Positions 5,431 through 29,881 of a DNA stretch of 39,568 nt are shown one piece after another. The translations under genes were made by a program, and so were the position numbers. This stretch comes from Oscillospiraceae bacterium. GTDB lineage: Bacteria > Bacillota > Clostridia > UMGS1810. The notes under the pieces are model-generated. The model did not search any database, was not told where the DNA came from, and worked only from the letters and a program-made list of their open reading frames with translations. The stretch spans positions 1 to 39,568 of the forward strand of contig SVJK01000013.1 in NCBI GenBank assembly GCA_015069015.1, written 5' to 3'. The first letter of the stretch is position 1. Every line of letters starts with the position of its first letter.

Positions 5431-6417
5431 ATGAACATTCGTCAGATGCGAGAAAATCAGGAAAGAGAAACTCTTTCAGAATATGCAACTCTTTCCGAAA
5501 ATTCAAAAGGCAGACAAAACTTCGAGGAAAAATGCCCCTTGCGTACAGACTTTTCAAGAGACAGAGACCGCATTATTCACTCAAAAGCCTTCAGACGCCT
5601 GAAACATAAAACTCAGGTCTTCATCTCTCTTGACAATGACCATTTCCGTACAAGACTCACTCACACTCTTGAAGTTTCCCAGATTGCCCGCACAATTGCA
5701 AGGGCGCTTGGTTTGAACGAAGACTTAGCAGAGGCAATATCAATGGGACACGACCTTGGTCACACGCCTTTTGGCCATTCGGGTGAAAGAGCCCTTGATG
5801 CTTTGTCTTCCAAAGGATTCAGACACTATGAGCAGAGTCTTCGTGTGGTGGACATTCTTGAAAAAAACGGCATGGGAATGAATCTGACATATGAGGTGCG
5901 TGACGGAATAGTAAATCACACAGGAAGCGATATGGCACAAACTTTAGAGGGCAGAATTGTAAAGTATGCAGACCGTATAGCCTACATAAATCATGATATA
6001 GACGACGCCATAAGAGCAGGAGTCATAGATTCAGAAGACATCCCGTCAGAATTTCTTGAAAAACTTGGCGAAACAGGTTCCCAGAGAATTGATAATCTCA
6101 TATCCGATATTGTATATACAAGTCTTGGCAAAAACGACATAAAGATGAGCGCGGAAACAGAGAAAAATATGCTTTCTTTAAGAAGTTTTATGTTTGAAAA
6201 TGTATATCATAATATGGCGCTGAGGGATTCTCAGTCTTTTATGGTTATTGAAAAACTTTTTAATTATTTTTTAAACGATGTAACACTTCTGCCTGTGGAA
6301 TATAAATTTCTTCTTGAGTCATGGGACAAAGAAACTGTTGTGTGTGACTATATTGCAGGAATGACCGATAATTTCTGTGTTGCACTTTTTAACGAACTCT
6401 TTATGCCCATAAAGTAA
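5431..6417 (+). CDS. dgt: Deoxyguanosinetriphosphate triphosphohydrolase-like protein (dGTPase, HD domain)
   Basis: A 328-residue HD-domain enzyme that hydrolyses dNTPs (classically dGTP) to the nucleoside and tripolyphosphate, limiting nucleotide pools. Metal ligands are visible as THTLEVSQIA (His78) and GHDLGHTPFGHSGE (His107, Asp108), with a later Asp in YADRIAYINHDIDDA. The N-terminal RDRDRIIHSKAFRRLKHKTQV is the family signature. The ATG at 5431 is preferred over GTG at 5422 because AGAGG lies 8 bp ahead and the family begins here. Length fits the shorter bacterial subfamily. It sits directly before dnaG and rpoD, an arrangement common in Clostridia. Confidence 0.93.
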   Translation: MNIRQMRENQERETLSEYATLSENSKGRQNFEEKCPLRTDFSRDRDRIIHSKAFRRLKHKTQVFISLDNDHFRTRLTHTLEVSQIARTIARALGLNEDLAEAISMGHDLGHTPFGHSGERALDALSSKGFRHYEQSLRVVDILEKNGMGMNLTYEVRDGIVNHTGSDMAQTLEGRIVKYADRIAYINHDIDDAIRAGVIDSEDIPSEFLEKLGETGSQRIDNLISDIVYTSLGKNDIKMSAETEKNMLSLRSFMFENVYHNMALRDSQSFMVIEKLFNYFLNDVTLLPVEYKFLLESWDKETVVCDYIAGMTDNFCVALFNELFMPIK

Positions 6418-6441
6418 TTGTTAAAATAGCATAGAAAAATG

Positions 6442-6474
6442 ACGGGAAATGATAAAATATTTCCCCGTATTTTA
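6442..6474 (+). terminator. Possible weak terminator between dgt and dnaG
   Basis: ACGGGAAAT (6442-6450) pairs with ATTTCCCCGT ending at 6469, with one bulged C, and is followed by ATTTTA. The stem is moderate and the T run poor, so partial readthrough into dnaG is likely. Confidence 0.4.
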
Positions 6475-6557
6475 GAAACGGAATTTCAAAAAAGGGATTC
6501 CGGGTTAAATGTCGAATAAAAATCTGTAAGAAACAAAAGATGAAAGGAGAATATGGG

Positions 6558-7886
6558 ATGCCGCTTTTTCCGGATTATGTAATTAAAGAAGTTGCAGATA
6601 AAAATGATATATATGATGTTATTTCCCAAACGGTATCTCTGAAAAAATCAGGCAGTTCCTACATAGGTCTTTGCCCCTTTCACAATGAAAAGACTCCGTC
6701 TTTTTCTGTTTCACCCAGACGTGGAATTTTTAAATGCTTTGGTTGCGGCGAAGGCGGAGACGTAATAGGTTTTGTTATGAAAAATGAAAACCTTTCATTT
6801 TTTGATGCGGTGACAAAACTTGCCTCAAGAGCCAATATAACTTTGCCTGAGGTCAAAAACTTTGACAAGGATAAAAGTGAAAAAAGAAAAGAAAAAGCAC
6901 AGCATATTTATGAAATTAATAAAGAGGCCGCGAACTACTTTTATTCAAACATAAAAAACTCTCCCGAGGCAATAGCCTATTTTAAAAAAAGAGAACTTTC
7001 TTCATCTCAGGTAAAGGCTTTCTGGCTTGGCTATGCCCCTGATTCATGGACAGGCCTTTTTGACCATCTTGTTTCAAAAGGGTATACTGAGGGGGATATT
7101 TATGATGCCGGACTCATCCGCCGTCACGAATCGGGAAGGTATTATGACTATTTCAGAAACCGCGTGATGTTTACCATTTTTGATTCAAATTCCAATATAA
7201 TCGGATTTGGTGGAAGGGTTTTAGATGACAGTAAACCCAAATACTTAAACTCTCCTGACAGTTCTGTTTTCAGCAAAGGAAAAAATCTTTATTCCATAAA
7301 CCTGGCAAAGCACTCAAAGAAAAAATTCTGTATTCTCTGTGAGGGGTATATGGATGCCATTGCCCTTATAAGTGCCGGCTATGATAATACAGTTGCCACA
7401 CTTGGAACTGCAATAGGTGACAGTCAGGCAAGAATGCTTTCAAGATTTTTTGAAGAAGTTGTCATATGCTATGACAGTGATGATGCAGGCAGAAACGCCA
7501 CAAATCGCGCAATCACGGTTTTAAGAGGACAGGACAAACTTAAAATTTCGGTTCTTGACTTAAAAGCAAAAAAAGATCCTGATGAATATATCAAAACCTA
7601 CGGAAAAGAACGGTTCAATTCGATGCTTAATGCAAGGAAGACCGATATGGAGTATTTAATAGACTATTTCGGGGAAAACTATAACCTGAAAAAATCAGAT
7701 GAGAAAATCAGATATATATCAGAACTCACTCAGTATTTGAGCCTCATTCCCACAAAAGTAGAACTTGATGTATATGCATCGGTTGTGGCGGAAAAAACAG
7801 GGGTACAAGCCTCGTCAATAATTTCTCAGTGTGGTGTAAAAAGGGCTGCAGGATTGGCGATATCCCGGGAAATACTGATGTTATAA
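6558..7886 (+). CDS. dnaG: DNA primase, N-terminal and catalytic portion (frameshifted gene)
   Basis: DnaG makes the RNA primers for replication. Starting at ATG 6558 (AAGGAG 8 bp ahead; an upstream ATG at 6540 precedes the ribosome binding site and is rejected), the protein has the CHC2 zinc finger CPFH...CFGC (Cys39, His42, Cys60, Cys63). The catalytic core and TOPRIM domain follow, with CEGYMDAI and VVICYDSDDAGRNA supplying acidic metal ligands. The homologous reading is lost near 7838-7845, and the frame ends at 7886 after a dozen unrelated residues. The helicase-binding C-terminus continues in another frame (7829-8311). Normal DnaG is about 590-600 residues, matching the two pieces together. 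One base missing beside AAAAAGGG would explain it. Confidence 0.93.
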   Translation: MPLFPDYVIKEVADKNDIYDVISQTVSLKKSGSSYIGLCPFHNEKTPSFSVSPRRGIFKCFGCGEGGDVIGFVMKNENLSFFDAVTKLASRANITLPEVKNFDKDKSEKRKEKAQHIYEINKEAANYFYSNIKNSPEAIAYFKKRELSSSQVKAFWLGYAPDSWTGLFDHLVSKGYTEGDIYDAGLIRRHESGRYYDYFRNRVMFTIFDSNSNIIGFGGRVLDDSKPKYLNSPDSSVFSKGKNLYSINLAKHSKKKFCILCEGYMDAIALISAGYDNTVATLGTAIGDSQARMLSRFFEEVVICYDSDDAGRNATNRAITVLRGQDKLKISVLDLKAKKDPDEYIKTYGKERFNSMLNARKTDMEYLIDYFGENYNLKKSDEKIRYISELTQYLSLIPTKVELDVYASVVAEKTGVQASSIISQCGVKRAAGLAISREILML

Positions 7887-8311
7887 ATGTTGTTAACAGA
7901 GGCGGAACGCCCACAGACGGCAAGGAGTATCTTGAAAAAACACGTTCACTTCTTCTTGGCACTCTCTTTTATGAACAGAAACTTTTTGTGAAGTATTCAT
8001 CAAAAATTGATATTACATTATTTGAAAATCCTCTTCACAAAAAGATATATTCTTACATAAAGGACTGCTCTGAAAAAGGCGAGAAGGTGTCCAACTCATA
8101 CCTTTTGTCCACTTTTGACACAAAAGAGGACATAAATGCGGTGTCGGGCATACTTGCTCTCGATCTTCAGTCGGATGATTCTGACAAAGCAGTGAACGAT
8201 TATATAAATCAGATTAAAGAAAAGGCAGGTCCAGAGAGGGCGATGGAACTTTTGCAAGAGGGAAAGATCACTCTTGAGGAATTTAACAAAATGATAAATA
8301 ACAAAGGATAA
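7829..8311 (+). CDS. dnaG: DNA primase, C-terminal helicase-interaction portion (frameshifted gene)
   Basis: This frame carries the rest of dnaG. After the shift it reads EYLEKTRSLLLGTLFYEQK, followed by a helical domain (PLHKKIYSYIKDCSEKGEK, EEFNKMINNKG), the DnaB-type helicase-binding region of bacterial primases. It is unlikely to be translated alone: the GTG at 7829 has no convincing ribosome binding site, and homology begins only near 7845. Read as one gene with the segment above, broken by a -1 shift. It ends 15 bp before rpoD, which has its own ribosome binding site. Confidence 0.85.
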   Translation: MWCKKGCRIGDIPGNTDVINVVNRGGTPTDGKEYLEKTRSLLLGTLFYEQKLFVKYSSKIDITLFENPLHKKIYSYIKDCSEKGEKVSNSYLLSTFDTKEDINAVSGILALDLQSDDSDKAVNDYINQIKEKAGPERAMELLQEGKITLEEFNKMINNKG

Positions 8312-17045: not shown

Positions 17046-17309
17046 TTGTCGAAAACACCAATCTATAAATATTTGGATGATGCAAAGAACTTTTCCCCTT
17101 TACAGATGGAGCAATATTTAAATAGAATGCAACCTTTTTATATTCGAATTTGTATTATATGTAAGGAAACATTTTCCTTTAAAAAACGGCGGAATACTAT
17201 GAAACAGTTTGGAGTACAAAATGAAAAGATATCCGGATTTTGGCTTGATGTTTTGATATATGGTAAAATATGGATATTCATGCTATTTCATAAGGAGTGG
17301 AAACGATGA
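17046..17309 (+). CDS. Doubtful small open frame before the secretion locus
   Basis: An 87-codon frame starting at TTG, with AAAGGTGAG too close ahead to be an ideal ribosome binding site. Its stop overlaps the ATG of the next gene as ATGA, which would be normal for coupled genes. The product (SKTPIYKYLDDAKNF, FSPLQMEQYLNRMQPFY, then a basic KKRR stretch) matches nothing I recognise. It may be a real small protein, a decayed gene or chance. The rest of 16967-17305 shows no other clear feature. Confidence 0.25.
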   Translation: MSKTPIYKYLDDAKNFSPLQMEQYLNRMQPFYIRICIICKETFSFKKRRNTMKQFGVQNEKISGFWLDVLIYGKIWIFMLFHKEWKR

Positions 17310-17563
17310 AGAAAATCATAGTGTTAATACTTACAATCGCTGTACTGATTGCCATATCTTCAGTGGTGTATGGAAAAGATTCAAAAATCCATGATGGCGT
17401 TTACAGAGGTGAGAAATGGGGACTTGATTTTGGAAAACCGGAGAATAACAAAATAATAATTTTTCCGCAGGATAGAGCGGAACCGAAAGTGTACGGAAAT
17501 GGTTATGTAGGTCGTATTGGAATTTATGAAAAGGAATACGAAATAACCCTGTTAGGTCAGTAA
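17306..17563 (+). CDS. Small exported protein of unknown function
   Basis: An 85-residue protein. Residues 1-24 form a Sec signal peptide (KKIIVLILTIAVLIAISSVVYG). The mature part of about 60 residues (KDSKIHDGVYRGEKWGLDFG, then PQDRAEPKVYGNGYVGRIGI) has no cysteine and looks like a small beta-rich domain. I recognise no family. The ATG at 17306 is chosen over GTG at 17297 because AAGGAG lies just before. Its stop codon overlaps the strong AAGGAGGT (17562-17569) of the serpin gene, so the two are probably one operon and may work together at the cell surface. Confidence 0.75.
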   Translation: MKKIIVLILTIAVLIAISSVVYGKDSKIHDGVYRGEKWGLDFGKPENNKIIIFPQDRAEPKVYGNGYVGRIGIYEKEYEITLLGQ

Positions 17564-17576
17564 GGAGGTACATATA

Positions 17577-19895
17577 ATGAAAAAGTTATTATCAATCATT
17601 TTAGCAATCATGATGTTTTTTTCAATGTCAAGGGTAACTTTCGCAGACGGAATTGACGGCCCAATGCAGAAAGCAATAATTAAAGTCGGAACAAGTGCTG
17701 ATTTTAAGCCTTTCGAGTATTATGATGAAAATGGTGAACTTACCGGTTTTGATATTGACCTTATGAATTATGTCGGTGAAAAAATAGGATTTGACATTGA
17801 GTTTGTTAATATGTCATTTGACAAACTCATTCCGGCAGTTGTTAGTGGTGAGATTGATTGTGCTATTTCTGCTATTTCGGTTACGGAGGAAAGAGATAAC
17901 ATAATAGATTATTCAAGAGAGTATTTGAAAACATATAATATCACTTTTGATGAAAATGGCAACCGTTCTACAAAGCATGGCGAACAATATGCAATAGTGT
18001 TCAGAGAAGGCCTGGCAGGTTCGCCATATGAGGAATTGTCAGAGCCGACAGGTGATGAAACTTTGTATATATTGATTGACAAAGCACTGCGTGAGTTATC
18101 AGATGACAGGACAGTGATGAAACTCATAGAAAAATATGAACTCAATAAGCCGCTGGATGAAAGCACTGTTAATGTTAAATACAGCGCAATTATGGGAGAC
18201 GGTGATCCGGGTGCAAATACGGATGACTCGGAACCAATAACTTCTGCAACATCTGTTGAGGCAAGTGAGTGGGCTTGGGCTGACATTGACAAAGCACACG
18301 CACTTAATATAACAAATGCCGGTGGAAACTATAACTTCCCCGGAGCAATCACCCGTGAAAAGTTTTGCGAACTTGCATATAATTATGTTTCAGAATTCGG
18401 TAACCTTCCGGTTGATGACGGACATATTGTTTTTGTGGATACGGACAATATGAAAGTTCGTATTCTTAACACAATGGGAATTATAAAGGGTAAATCTAAA
18501 GCGCAATTTGCCCCCAATGACTTGTTAACCCGTGAAGAAGCGGCAACAATATTAAACCGTCTTATAAACATAGTGCATCCTGATTTGGTAAGCACAGAAT
18601 TGTATTATGAATTTTCGGACAACGCACAAATTTCCGATTGGGCGATGAGTGCTGTTCAGAGGATCTGCAATATGGGCATTATGAAAGGTGTTGGGAACAA
18701 TAACTTTGCTCCGAAGGAGAATTACACCACAGAGCAGGCTATTGTAACTCTCGTAAGAGTATATGCAAGTTCCGGCATCAGTAAACCTGATAACATGACC
18801 TTTGCGGATAAATTAAAATCACAGATGCCGACAAATACGAACTATATGTTCTCGCCGTTGTCAATCAAAATGGCTTTTGCTATGGCGGCAAACGGGGCTG
18901 ACGGAAATACTAAAACAGAGATTTTGAATACTTTGGATATTGACAACTTGGATGAATATAATGAGTATGCAAAAAAACTTATTGAAGGCTATCAGAAAGC
19001 AGACATACTAAAACTTGATATTGCAAATGCACTTTGGATTAACAAAACCAACACCACACAAAAATTTTCTGAAAGTTACCAAAACACTCTCGAAAATTTT
19101 TATGACGCTGAAGTGAACAGTTCAACCCGGGATAAGATTGCGGGCGAAATTAACAGTTGGGTAAAAGAAAAGACAAACGATAAGATAGACGGCATCATAA
19201 CAGATGAATTGGCACAAGATGAGCGTTTTATTATGGCACTTTTGAACGCTGTATATTTCAAAGGGGCATGGCAGAATGAATTTGATGAAGATGCAACAAA
19301 GAAAGACATTTTTACCGACAGAAATGGTGCTGAAAAACAGACGGACTTTATGAACGAAACCGCATACTATGGCTATTACAACGAAAACGGCACTGAAGTT
19401 CTGGCACTTCCATATAAAAACAGAGTTTATGATGAAACAGCAGAAGAAATGCTTTCCTATGATTTTGATGTTTCAATGTATTTAATAAGGGGTGACTATA
19501 GCGAAAATACTTTATCAGGTCTTATTGAAAACAAAAGTCTTGCAAACAAAAGAATAAAACTCAGTATTCCTAAATTCGAAAGTGAGTTTGACACATCTCT
19601 TATAGATATTATGAATAACCTCGGTGTTGTGGATGCTTTTGAAGACAAGAAAGCAGATTTCAGAAAGATGTTTGATAAGGGAAATATGTATTTGATGGCG
19701 GCTATGCATAAAACGTATATCAAGGTTGACGAAAGAGGAACTGAAGCTGCAGCAGTTACAGGTTTATTTGGAGGTACTACATCTGTGCCGCCTGAACCGA
19801 TTGTTGTGAAGTTTGATACTCCGTTTACCTATGTTATCCGTGATGATGCAAATGGTGAAATATTATTTATGGGAGAATATGCCTTTGTAGAATAA
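17577..19895 (+). CDS. Exported SBP_bac_3-like / SLH-repeat / serpin fusion protein
   Basis: A 772-residue secreted multidomain protein. Residues 1-23 are a signal peptide. About 33-192 resemble a family-3 solute-binding domain (IIKVGTSADFKPFEYYDENG, LTGFDIDLMNYVGEKIGF, DKLIPAVVSGEIDCAISAIS, SVTEERDNIIDYSREY), but the middle of lobe 2 is missing. About 230-397 are three SLH-like repeats (WADIDKAHALNITNAGG, ILNTMGIIKGKSKAQFAPND, ICNMGIMKGVGNNNFAPKEN), which in relatives bind secondary cell-wall polymer. About 407-772 are a full serpin: MFSPLSIKMAFAMAANGADG, ALLNAVYFKGAWQNEF, the inhibitory hinge DERGTEAAAVT (718-728) and FTYVIRD-to-ILFMGEYAF at the end. Serpins trap serine or cysteine proteases as covalent complexes. 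Wall-anchored protease inhibition is inferred. Confidence 0.9.
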   Translation: MKKLLSIILAIMMFFSMSRVTFADGIDGPMQKAIIKVGTSADFKPFEYYDENGELTGFDIDLMNYVGEKIGFDIEFVNMSFDKLIPAVVSGEIDCAISAISVTEERDNIIDYSREYLKTYNITFDENGNRSTKHGEQYAIVFREGLAGSPYEELSEPTGDETLYILIDKALRELSDDRTVMKLIEKYELNKPLDESTVNVKYSAIMGDGDPGANTDDSEPITSATSVEASEWAWADIDKAHALNITNAGGNYNFPGAITREKFCELAYNYVSEFGNLPVDDGHIVFVDTDNMKVRILNTMGIIKGKSKAQFAPNDLLTREEAATILNRLINIVHPDLVSTELYYEFSDNAQISDWAMSAVQRICNMGIMKGVGNNNFAPKENYTTEQAIVTLVRVYASSGISKPDNMTFADKLKSQMPTNTNYMFSPLSIKMAFAMAANGADGNTKTEILNTLDIDNLDEYNEYAKKLIEGYQKADILKLDIANALWINKTNTTQKFSESYQNTLENFYDAEVNSSTRDKIAGEINSWVKEKTNDKIDGIITDELAQDERFIMALLNAVYFKGAWQNEFDEDATKKDIFTDRNGAEKQTDFMNETAYYGYYNENGTEVLALPYKNRVYDETAEEMLSYDFDVSMYLIRGDYSENTLSGLIENKSLANKRIKLSIPKFESEFDTSLIDIMNNLGVVDAFEDKKADFRKMFDKGNMYLMAAMHKTYIKVDERGTEAAAVTGLFGGTTSVPPEPIVVKFDTPFTYVIRDDANGEILFMGEYAFVE

Positions 19896-19908: not shown

Positions 19909-19959
19909 ATGAAAAGATTATTATCAATGATTTTAAATAGAAAAGATAATGTTAAATGA
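19909..19959 (+). pseudogene. Relic of a second signal-peptide gene start
   Basis: Just after the serpin gene, AAGGAG is followed by an ATG at 19909 and a 16-codon frame, MKRLLSMILNRKDNVK. It closely resembles the first residues of the serpin protein (MKKLLSIILA) at both DNA and protein level. The coding sequence then stops and a terminator follows. This looks like the surviving 5' end of a duplicated paralogue whose body has been deleted. Confidence 0.5.
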
Positions 19960-19964
19960 GAAAT

Positions 19965-20000
19965 AGCCTATCACTCCGAAAAAGTGATAGGCTGTTTATT
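19965..20000 (+). terminator. Terminator of the serpin locus
   Basis: AGCCTATCACT (19965-19975) pairs perfectly with AGTGATAGGCT (19983-19993) around a 7-nt loop, followed by GTTTATT. The 11-bp perfect stem makes this a convincing intrinsic terminator. Confidence 0.85.
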
Positions 20001-27916: not shown

Positions 27917-29881
27917 ATGTATAAAGTTAATATACCGTTCAAATCAAAATTGAGAAGCGAAAAAGAATGGGAAATTTCCATTTCTGAACTGAAAAGAGCA
28001 AAAGCAGACGGAATCTATCTGATATACGATCGCTTTCTTTTGGATGATAAAAAAAAGCAACGGACGAAAAGCATTTTTGAGGATAACAAAAAAATGCTGG
28101 AAACGGCAGGTTTTGAGGTATATGCATGGGTTGTACCCACCATAGGATACGGCAGTCTGGCAAACGAAACAGAGGTTGAGGCGGCGAAAAAATACAGGAA
28201 AATAATGGGTGTTCACGGAAAAGAAACCAATGCGTTTTGCCCTCTTGACGATGATTTTTGCAAGGATTTATACACCACCTTTTCAAATGTCGCAAAAACG
28301 GGAGTGAAAAGAATTCTTCTCGAAGATGAATTCACGCTTACAGGAGGAAAACTTCCGATAAACAGCATAGGTTGCTGTTGCGATACACATATGAAAAAAC
28401 TTTGTGAAATTCTTGGTGAGGATATTTCGAGGGAAAAACTTGCAAAGCACCTTACAGAGGGAAAACCAAACAAATACCGTGAAGCATTTTTTAAACTTTC
28501 AGAGCAGTCACTCATAAAAGTGGCAAAAGGAATAGAAAAAGCCGTACATGATATAGATCCTCAGATCAGAATAGGGATGTCAGCAAATTCTGCGTCATAT
28601 CATATTGAGGGTGCGGATTTTGTGACTTTATGCAAGACAGTTGCCGGAAACACAAAACCCTTTGCAAGATTAACAGGTGCGCCGTACTGGAAAGATAACG
28701 CACCAAATATGAATTCCGTGATAGAAACCATAAGAGGACAGAGTGTGTGGTGTGCAAATGAAGGAATAGAGTGCATGACAGAGGGTGACACCTATCCGAG
28801 ACCAAGGTTTATAGTTCCTGCATCTCATCTTGAAATGTATGATATGATACTTCGTGCAGATAAAAACACAGACTCAATTTTAAAATATATGCATGACTAC
28901 AATTCCAAAGATAACTATGAAACAGGATATATAGACAATCATGTTGAAAATGCCGGGATTTATGAAGAAATAGAAAAACGGTTCAAAGGCAGTACTGTAG
29001 GTTTAAAGGTGTATGAAACACCCTATAGTATTTCGGAAATGGATTTTGACGAAACATTTCCCTATATGGCTTTTGCCGATCATGGCATACTTCCGCTTAT
29101 AAGCCAGTGGCTTGTGACGGATTGCTCTGTTCCGACAACATACGGTAGCGCCGAGGGGGCATCCCTTGTTTTTGGTCAAAACGCCAAAAGTCTTACGGAA
29201 AGCGACATAAAAGGCGGGTTGATTCTTGATATAGCCGCTGCAAAAATACTGATGGAAAAGGGCGTTGACGTAGGTTTTACAAACATTGAGGAAGCACCCA
29301 AACCAAGCGGAGAATATTTTATTGAACAAGATGACATAATATGCGCCGCCACAGAACGGGAAGGGGGATTTTTCAGAATTACACCAAACCCCGAAGCAAA
29401 AGTACTCAGTGAATTTTATTGTTCATTCGGAAGCCTCATAGGAACAACCGGATTTTGTGAGGCGCAAGATAGATACCCTGCATGTTATATGTATGAGAAC
29501 AAAAAAGGACAGAGATTTATGGTGTACACCTTTGCCGCAACGTGTATAAAGACAAAATGCAGCGGATATAGCGGGCTTTTCAGAAATTACTATCGTCAGT
29601 CACAACTTATAGAAGGATATAAATGGTTATGCGGAAGAAAACTTCCCGCGGTGTGCAAAAAAGCACCGTATCTCTATATAATATGTAAACGAGAAGAAGA
29701 AAAACTTCACATAGGTCTTTTCAATATTTCTGCAGATAAGATATACAATCCGGTAATTGAAGTTGAAAAGGAATATAAAAGTGCAGATTTTTATAATTGT
29801 ACCGGAAGAATCGAAGGCGAAAATGTAGTTTTGGAAGAAACAATACTTCCGTATTCAGTTGCGTTTATAACTTTGTCTTAA
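27917..29881 (+). CDS. Putative glycoside hydrolase-like protein, family not recognised
   Basis: A 654-residue protein with no signal peptide, so probably cytoplasmic. The first half looks like a TIM barrel: GIYLIYDRFLLDDKKK, YAWVVPTIGYGS, CPLDDDFCKDLYTTF, RILLEDEFTLTGGK, and IGCCCDTHMKKLCEIL, similar in style to GH42-like proteins where an acidic residue precedes a Cys-rich segment. The last 130 residues (LHIGLFNISADKIYNP to PYSVAFITLS) resemble the beta-sandwich that closes GH42-type enzymes. I cannot name a family or substrate. AAAGGAG precedes the ATG. It lies between ribF and mannose-6-phosphate isomerase, hinting at sugar use. Confidence 0.6.
   Translation: MYKVNIPFKSKLRSEKEWEISISELKRAKADGIYLIYDRFLLDDKKKQRTKSIFEDNKKMLETAGFEVYAWVVPTIGYGSLANETEVEAAKKYRKIMGVHGKETNAFCPLDDDFCKDLYTTFSNVAKTGVKRILLEDEFTLTGGKLPINSIGCCCDTHMKKLCEILGEDISREKLAKHLTEGKPNKYREAFFKLSEQSLIKVAKGIEKAVHDIDPQIRIGMSANSASYHIEGADFVTLCKTVAGNTKPFARLTGAPYWKDNAPNMNSVIETIRGQSVWCANEGIECMTEGDTYPRPRFIVPASHLEMYDMILRADKNTDSILKYMHDYNSKDNYETGYIDNHVENAGIYEEIEKRFKGSTVGLKVYETPYSISEMDFDETFPYMAFADHGILPLISQWLVTDCSVPTTYGSAEGASLVFGQNAKSLTESDIKGGLILDIAAAKILMEKGVDVGFTNIEEAPKPSGEYFIEQDDIICAATEREGGFFRITPNPEAKVLSEFYCSFGSLIGTTGFCEAQDRYPACYMYENKKGQRFMVYTFAATCIKTKCSGYSGLFRNYYRQSQLIEGYKWLCGRKLPAVCKKAPYLYIICKREEEKLHIGLFNISADKIYNPVIEVEKEYKSADFYNCTGRIEGENVVLEETILPYSVAFITLS

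Follow-up and report, generated by a model that had tools for sequence, protein, structure and literature searches.

A 772-residue protein encoded in the genome of an Oscillospiraceae bacterium is probably an exported, wall-anchored serpin of the inhibitory type, a displayed suicide inhibitor that would trap small-P1 serine proteases at the cell surface. Wall anchoring of a serpin is a known idea and a common local form; the new element is a natural one-lobe solute-binding-protein (SBP) module, which occupies a slot whose contents are swapped among related proteins.

The gene lies in the window, by which we mean the whole stretch of 39,568 nucleotides analyzed (Oscillospiraceae bacterium, GCA_015069015.1, contig SVJK01000013.1, positions 1 to 39,568, forward strand); the assembly is a draft of 101 contigs. 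The open reading frame (ORF) at 17577-19895 (+) starts with ATG, is preceded by an AGGAGG site, and has no internal stops. It encodes, in this order, a signal peptide, an SBP_bac_3 domain, a linker, three SLH repeats, and a serpin. A first-pass annotation had described one 772-residue frame with a signal peptide, a binding-protein-like segment, an SLH triplet, and a complete serpin, and Pfam matches and motif spacing confirm this description. The features are as follows.

17306..17563, +: small secreted protein of 85 aa without a Pfam match, separated from the serpin gene by 13 bp
17577..17645, +: Sec-type signal peptide, residues 1-23 (MKK..VTFA/DG), without a lipobox (read from the sequence)
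17679..18137, +: one-lobe SBP_bac_3 module, residues 35-187 (Pfam, PDB alignment, AF2, Foldseek)
18258..18425, +: SLH repeat 1, residues ~228-283, TREK at 259, degenerate (motif spacing, alignment with relatives)
18432..18608, +: SLH repeat 2, residues ~286-344, TREE at 318 (Pfam SLH 294-323)
18609..18782, +: SLH repeat 3, residues ~345-402, TTEQ at 384 (second Pfam SLH stretch; in relatives, a local SLH profile)
18792..19880, +: complete serpin domain, residues 406-768 (Pfam; matches to PDB serpins down to 6e-46)
19737..19796, +: reactive center loop P15-P5', residues 721-740, GTEAAAVTGLFGGTT/SVPPE (register with alpha-1-antitrypsin; reactive-loop survey)
19909..19959, +: 16-codon vestige (MKRLLSMILNRKDNVK*) resembling the start of the serpin gene (DNA match, translation)
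19961..19997, +: terminator-like hairpin of 15 pairs, 3' of the serpin gene

The three-part fusion and its locus

A search of 84,980 species genomes, supplemented by scans of kin genomes, recovered the identical three-part order in G011 (L020/L017; same family; 80% identical across residues 22-771) and in G359 (L023/L076; from a different family; 51% identical across residues 1-772). Both lie outside the genus of the window, and the domain junctions are at homologous places. The fusion is therefore genuine, and an assembly chimera of two genes, which the first reading had named as a finding that would undo it, is excluded by two independent MAGs with the same order. The draft state of the assembly is all that speaks for such a chimera; the reading frame is continuous, and because full-length copies exist in separate records, we reject this explanation as having virtually no chance of being true.

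The neighbors of the serpin gene are the small secreted ORF, an AraC regulator, and a rimP-nusA-IF2 block; no ABC permease or ATPase partner adjoins the SBP segment in the inspected gene neighborhood. The 85-aa ORF and the serpin gene probably form a two-gene operon with a common transcript. L022 matches positions 17343-17758 of the window at 83% DNA identity, a match that covers the 85-aa ORF and the start of the serpin gene. Secreted or lipoprotein-like small ORFs without Pfam matches adjoin serpin genes on the upstream side in several loci (window 17306-17563 (+), L020:462-989, and L021:5380-5904), and such ORFs may be functional partners. Downstream, the vestige matches, as DNA, the gene starts of L020, L022, and L023 and is likely the remnant of a lost tandem copy of the serpin gene. 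Terminator-like sites, to which the hairpin at 19961-19997 belongs, numbered 5, versus 2.1 expected in shuffles.

Elsewhere in the window, dnaG is apparently split into two overlapping frames at 6540-7886 and 7829-8311 (+), which encode 448 aa and 160 aa, the latter carrying the kind of DnaB-N-like domain found at the C terminus of primase; this seems to be either an assembly frameshift error or a genuine split. A 654-residue ORF without a Pfam match (27917-29881 (+)) is flanked by the genes for riboflavin kinase and mannose-6-phosphate isomerase.

Predicted export and wall anchoring, and the reactive center loop

The Sec signal would direct export of the protein, with predicted cleavage by signal peptidase I; L020, L022, and L023 start with comparable signal peptides. 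Three tandem SLH repeats with T-R-x-E-type motifs follow, the third of which lacks the motif Arg. Pfam SLH (PF00395; 3.4e-14) places two repeats above the threshold, and the most N-terminal repeat was identified by motif spacing. The genome of the window also carries a CsaB-type pyruvyl transferase (TIGR03609; 276.5 bits versus a cutoff of 213.1) and many other SLH proteins. Judging from these sequences, the SLH triplet would anchor the protein to the wall by docking on a pyruvylated secondary wall polymer (SCWP).

The serpin profile (PF00079, MEROPS I4) matches at 1.4e-83 from model position 3 to 367 of 370, with 365 of the 370 positions covered. phmmer searches against the PDB yielded conserpin, tengpin, and antithrombin (about 1e-46 to 1e-37), with conserpin and tengpin as the closest solved structures. 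A full-length AF2 model reached a pLDDT of 40 with a shallow alignment of six sequences; because alignment depth was insufficient, the assignment of the serpin fold is based on the sequence profiles. The inhibitory hinge P17-P9 (E-x-G-T-E-A-A-A-A) reads ERGTEAAAV here, with a conservative Val at P9, and a canonical hinge is found in the window protein and nearly all of the 31 related serpins listed. A published study regards this motif as indicating inhibitory competence (PMC8233489). Thus, the earlier description of an exported, SLH-bearing, inhibitory-type serpin is supported by both the domains and the hinge.

Serpins that do not inhibit proteases exist, and the serpin could accordingly serve as a storage, chaperone, or ligand-carrier protein; given the canonical hinge (DERGTEAAAVT) and the complete serpin profile, we consider this very unlikely. 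In an inhibitory serpin, the C-terminal domain would be held out as a suicide substrate. The register with alpha-1-antitrypsin from the hinge to SxPPE is gap free and predicts Thr735 as P1 and Ser736 as P1', an assignment by register only; some serpins are cleaved at neighboring bonds. P1 is Ser or Thr in close relatives, with small residues around it, and a small P1 would suit elastase-like or broad subtilisin-like enzymes. Such a serine protease would cut near Thr735-Ser736, whereupon the reactive loop would insert and the protease would be trapped covalently on the cell surface. In this way, surface proteins would be shielded from the cell's own proteases or from those present in the gut.

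A natural one-lobe SBP module

The SBP_bac_3 (PF00497) match at residues 35-187 is strong (1.8e-32; model 1-129 of 132). In intact family-3 SBPs, lobe 1 is composed of the N- and C-terminal parts, and lobe 2 is inserted between them. The window module consists of the N part of lobe 1 (residues 35-118), a short hairpin linker where lobe 2 would be, and the C part of lobe 1 (residues 136-187). In phmmer/PDB alignments, its match to lobe 1 extends as far as the first crossing strand and resumes, after a gap and only weakly, at the C-terminal helices. Lobe 2, of about 60 to 85 residues, is missing, and the two-lobe (Venus flytrap) form is thus absent. An alignment with two intact SBPs of the window's genome shows that the insert is lacking in the window protein and seven others. 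The SBP_bac_3 span is 212 residues in an intact SBP of the same genome (model 1-130 of 132), 153 in the window, and 127 in L112 and L127. Because the PF00497.25 model has 132 positions, over which an intact SBP spreads a full match of 212 residues, a full-length match is no proof of two lobes, and it is possible that one-lobe SBPs have been overlooked in annotations. The first-pass annotation had proposed a ligand-binding segment of this family; the family assignment stands, whereas the protein is not a Venus-flytrap binding protein. Its view that this domain is the most unusual part of the protein was borne out.

AF2 modeling of the 167-residue SBP piece gave a pLDDT of 71 and a pTM of 0.70, with a long hairpin at the place of lobe 2. 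For the fold alignment, the two-lobe SBP L025 was reduced to its lobe-1 stretch because the whole sequence misaligned lobe 2. In a Foldseek search with this model, ranks 2 to 5 were 6y16, 7a99, and 6gpc (TmArgBP) and 6xks (LAO domain A), with TM scores of 0.75 to 0.80 on the target (0.77 to 0.80 for TmArgBP-D1). These are engineered single-domain SBPs in which, likewise, lobe 2 was excised and the ends were joined; they share 29 to 37% identity with the window module, including the pocket Arg. While TmArgBP-D1 and LAO domain A are laboratory constructs, the window module occurs in nature, recurs, and forms part of a fusion with a wall anchor. To our knowledge, single-lobe SBPs had been known only as laboratory constructs; the literature searched contained no natural one-lobe SBP, which does not prove that none has been described.

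In LAO/TmArgBP-type SBPs, the position of R106 (in TEER) is occupied by the alpha-carboxylate Arg, the T-x-x-R residue that we take to be the holder of the ligand carboxylate in LAO-type SBPs. None of the eight natural one-lobe SBPs has lost this Arg, the pocket strand, or the Phe that corresponds to LAO F52. Arginine binding persists in isolated TmArgBP-D1, the F57W form of which has a Kd of about 3 uM (PMC7589609). Because the carboxylate Arg is kept and TmArgBP-D1 binds arginine, the window module could bind an amino acid or a peptide carboxylate weakly and reversibly. The module sits in a variable accessory slot with its lobe-1 pocket and carboxylate Arg preserved, is incapable of normal SBP closure, and is evolutionarily dispensable. 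It is also conceivable, though improbable, that it acts as a sensor or docking module that recognizes amino acids or new peptide C termini through the carboxylate Arg and concentrates or gates the wall-bound serpin at sites of proteolysis, with the half-SBP-SLH chassis bearing other effectors in relatives.

Alternatively, the module may bind no ligand at all and be a spacer, decayed or neutral, that raises the anchor or shields it, retained solely through its stable folding, with the wall-bound serpin working independently of it. We regard this as falling just short of evenly balanced. It agrees with the loss or absence of the SBP in the close relatives L021, L022, and L014, with the fast divergence of its C part (57% identity with L020 and 42% with L023), and with the removal of lobe 2, which is half of the normal binding site. 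Against it stands the retention of Arg106, the pocket strand, and the Phe corresponding to LAO F52 in eight of eight proteins from four families with two kinds of C-terminal domains.

Turnover of the slot and exchange of serpin cassettes

In SLH-serpins, the slot contains a one-lobe SBP, an SBP stub, nothing, or a subtilisin-prodomain-like module. L013 (G004) and L014 (G005), both from the genus of the window, are identical in the first 44 residues and 97.5% identical in SLH and serpin; between these two stretches, L013 has about 106 additional residues, which form a module similar to the fervidolysin prodomain and also to the propeptide of the secreted subtilase of G011. L013 (1489-3606(-), compared with L014:1489-3288(-)) thus possibly combines two protease-directed modules in one protein. 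In L022 (G009; 5980-7815(+)), the signal peptide and about 37 SBP residues are followed by SLH1 at a GATATTGA-type microhomology, an in-frame loss of the SBP. Other front modules are a PBP_like_2 domain that follows the SLH repeats in L024 and, in L009 and L016, copper-amine-oxidase-N-like domains. In L024 (1474-4308(+)) and L019, the combination of SLH, PBP_like_2 (phosphate-binding-like), and serpin places another binding-protein module beside a serpin.

The dN/dS ratio is about 0.1 in the SBP N part, with dS at saturation, and the values for SLH and serpin lie below 0.12; all three parts appear to be under purifying selection. Between the window and L020, dS is about 2.2 (saturated) in the SBP and 0.8 in SLH and serpin, and hence the front and the back seem to differ in history even in proteins of the same architecture. 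With IF-2 identity as a yardstick, serpins are too similar in three genome pairs: the window and G011 (IF-2, 73%; serpin, 90%), the window and G074 (60% and 77%), and G009 and G092 (60% and 90%, with unrelated regions ahead of the serpin). The window and G009 show the opposite pattern (IF-2, 78%; SLH, 84%; serpin, 48%). This mismatch carries the signature of an exchange of whole serpin cassettes between species, part of which MAG misbinning could mimic. L022 and L024 belong to different families, yet their serpin cassettes share 90% identity.

A half-SBP-SLH chassis with other C termini

A profile spanning the SBP-SLH junction (A2) was searched in 391 genomes of the class and matched the window, G011, G359, G092, G025, and G137. 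Reading of the fetched loci added G190, and family-level searches added G781 and G828. In the phylum sample (399 genomes), the junction had no match beyond the window's own genome. Eight half-SBP-SLH proteins from four families, including the window protein, are complete; the G092 protein, from a fifth family, ends at a contig edge within the SBP part. The C terminus is not a serpin in G025, G137, G190, G781, and G092, in which a domain starting with an IIGGAD-x-PT-type segment is present instead, and the G828 protein stops shortly past a similar segment. Because either a serpin or an unrelated domain follows the one-lobe SBP and the SLH repeats, these parts form a small chassis with exchangeable C-terminal effectors. 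The IIGGAD-x-PT-type domain of about 200 residues (L101:658-2562(-), L102:1093-2976(+), L112:976-2736(+), L127:643-2439(-), and L024:2-1447(+)) may be a second effector on this chassis; in two of these proteins, a weak OAD_beta match is confined to the IIGGAD-x-PT-type segment.

Target protease

The hindgut of deer and sheep is the recorded source of close relatives, which makes a gut setting likely. The main target may be a secreted subtilase of the cell itself or of a neighbor rather than a host protease, with the serpin serving in surface protection or self-control; we lean somewhat against this. The genome of the window encodes a secreted subtilase (L145), and the prodomain-like slot module of L013, from the same genus (Pfam, 0.00026; BLAST against the G011 subtilase propeptide, 1e-7), hints at subtilases as targets. 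According to a review (PMC12484212), subtilisin-like proteases are inhibited by serpins of Clostridium thermocellum. In contrast, no S8 protease was found in G074 (97% complete), the serpin of which is 77% identical, and several S8-bearing relatives have no serpin. Moreover, siropins do not inhibit subtilisin, although they are inhibitors of neutrophil elastase and proteinase 3 (PMC5127057).

Frequency and known systems

Serpins were present in 165 of the 391 sampled genomes of the class, and, at a domain E value of <0.01 for SLH, at least 29 distinct SLH-serpins besides the window protein were found among the long serpin ORFs fetched; the genomes compared are all or mostly MAGs. The statement that bacterial serpins are uncommon was therefore rejected for this class, and the implied rarity of wall anchoring did not hold either. 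No relatives of the SBP or serpin module were found in viral contigs, and the best matches listed from a plasmid collection were serpins of 25 to 36% identity, none covering 80% of the query. SLH-serpins were not found in the literature searched, which does not prove their absence from it.

Like other SLH-serpins of Clostridia (L021, L012, L014, L077, and more), the window protein has SLH repeats ahead of the serpin and the same hinge, whereas in the former the SBP is absent or a different N-terminal module is present. It shares the inhibitory hinge with the Eubacterium siraeum siropins, also from gut Clostridia, and with Group T serpins (miropin, tengpin, and the B. longum serpin); inhibition has been demonstrated for siropins, and the accessible parts of these reports describe no SLH or SBP modules on the siropins or Group T serpins (PMC5127057, PMC8233489). 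PinA, a cellulosomal serpin of C. thermocellum, and the dockerin-borne Dpi are thought to guard surface complexes; like the window protein, they are surface-linked protease inhibitors of Clostridia, but they are linked to the cellulosome without SLH repeats in the same chain, and no SBP lobe is mentioned (PMC12484212). Another C. thermocellum protein, with three SLH repeats and IPI (BsuPI) inhibitor-like domains (PMC3901451), likewise fuses an SLH anchor to a protease-inhibitor-type domain, which is, however, Ig-like, with neither a serpin nor an SBP.

Wall-anchored serpins thus emerge as a standard surface part in many gut Clostridia, which bears on how commensals deal with proteases of the host or of competitors. 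The swapping of front modules and serpin cassettes illustrates, in compact form, how domains are shuffled among gut species. With what appear to be naturally evolved single-lobe SBPs, the usefulness of half a Venus flytrap as a binding domain becomes directly testable.
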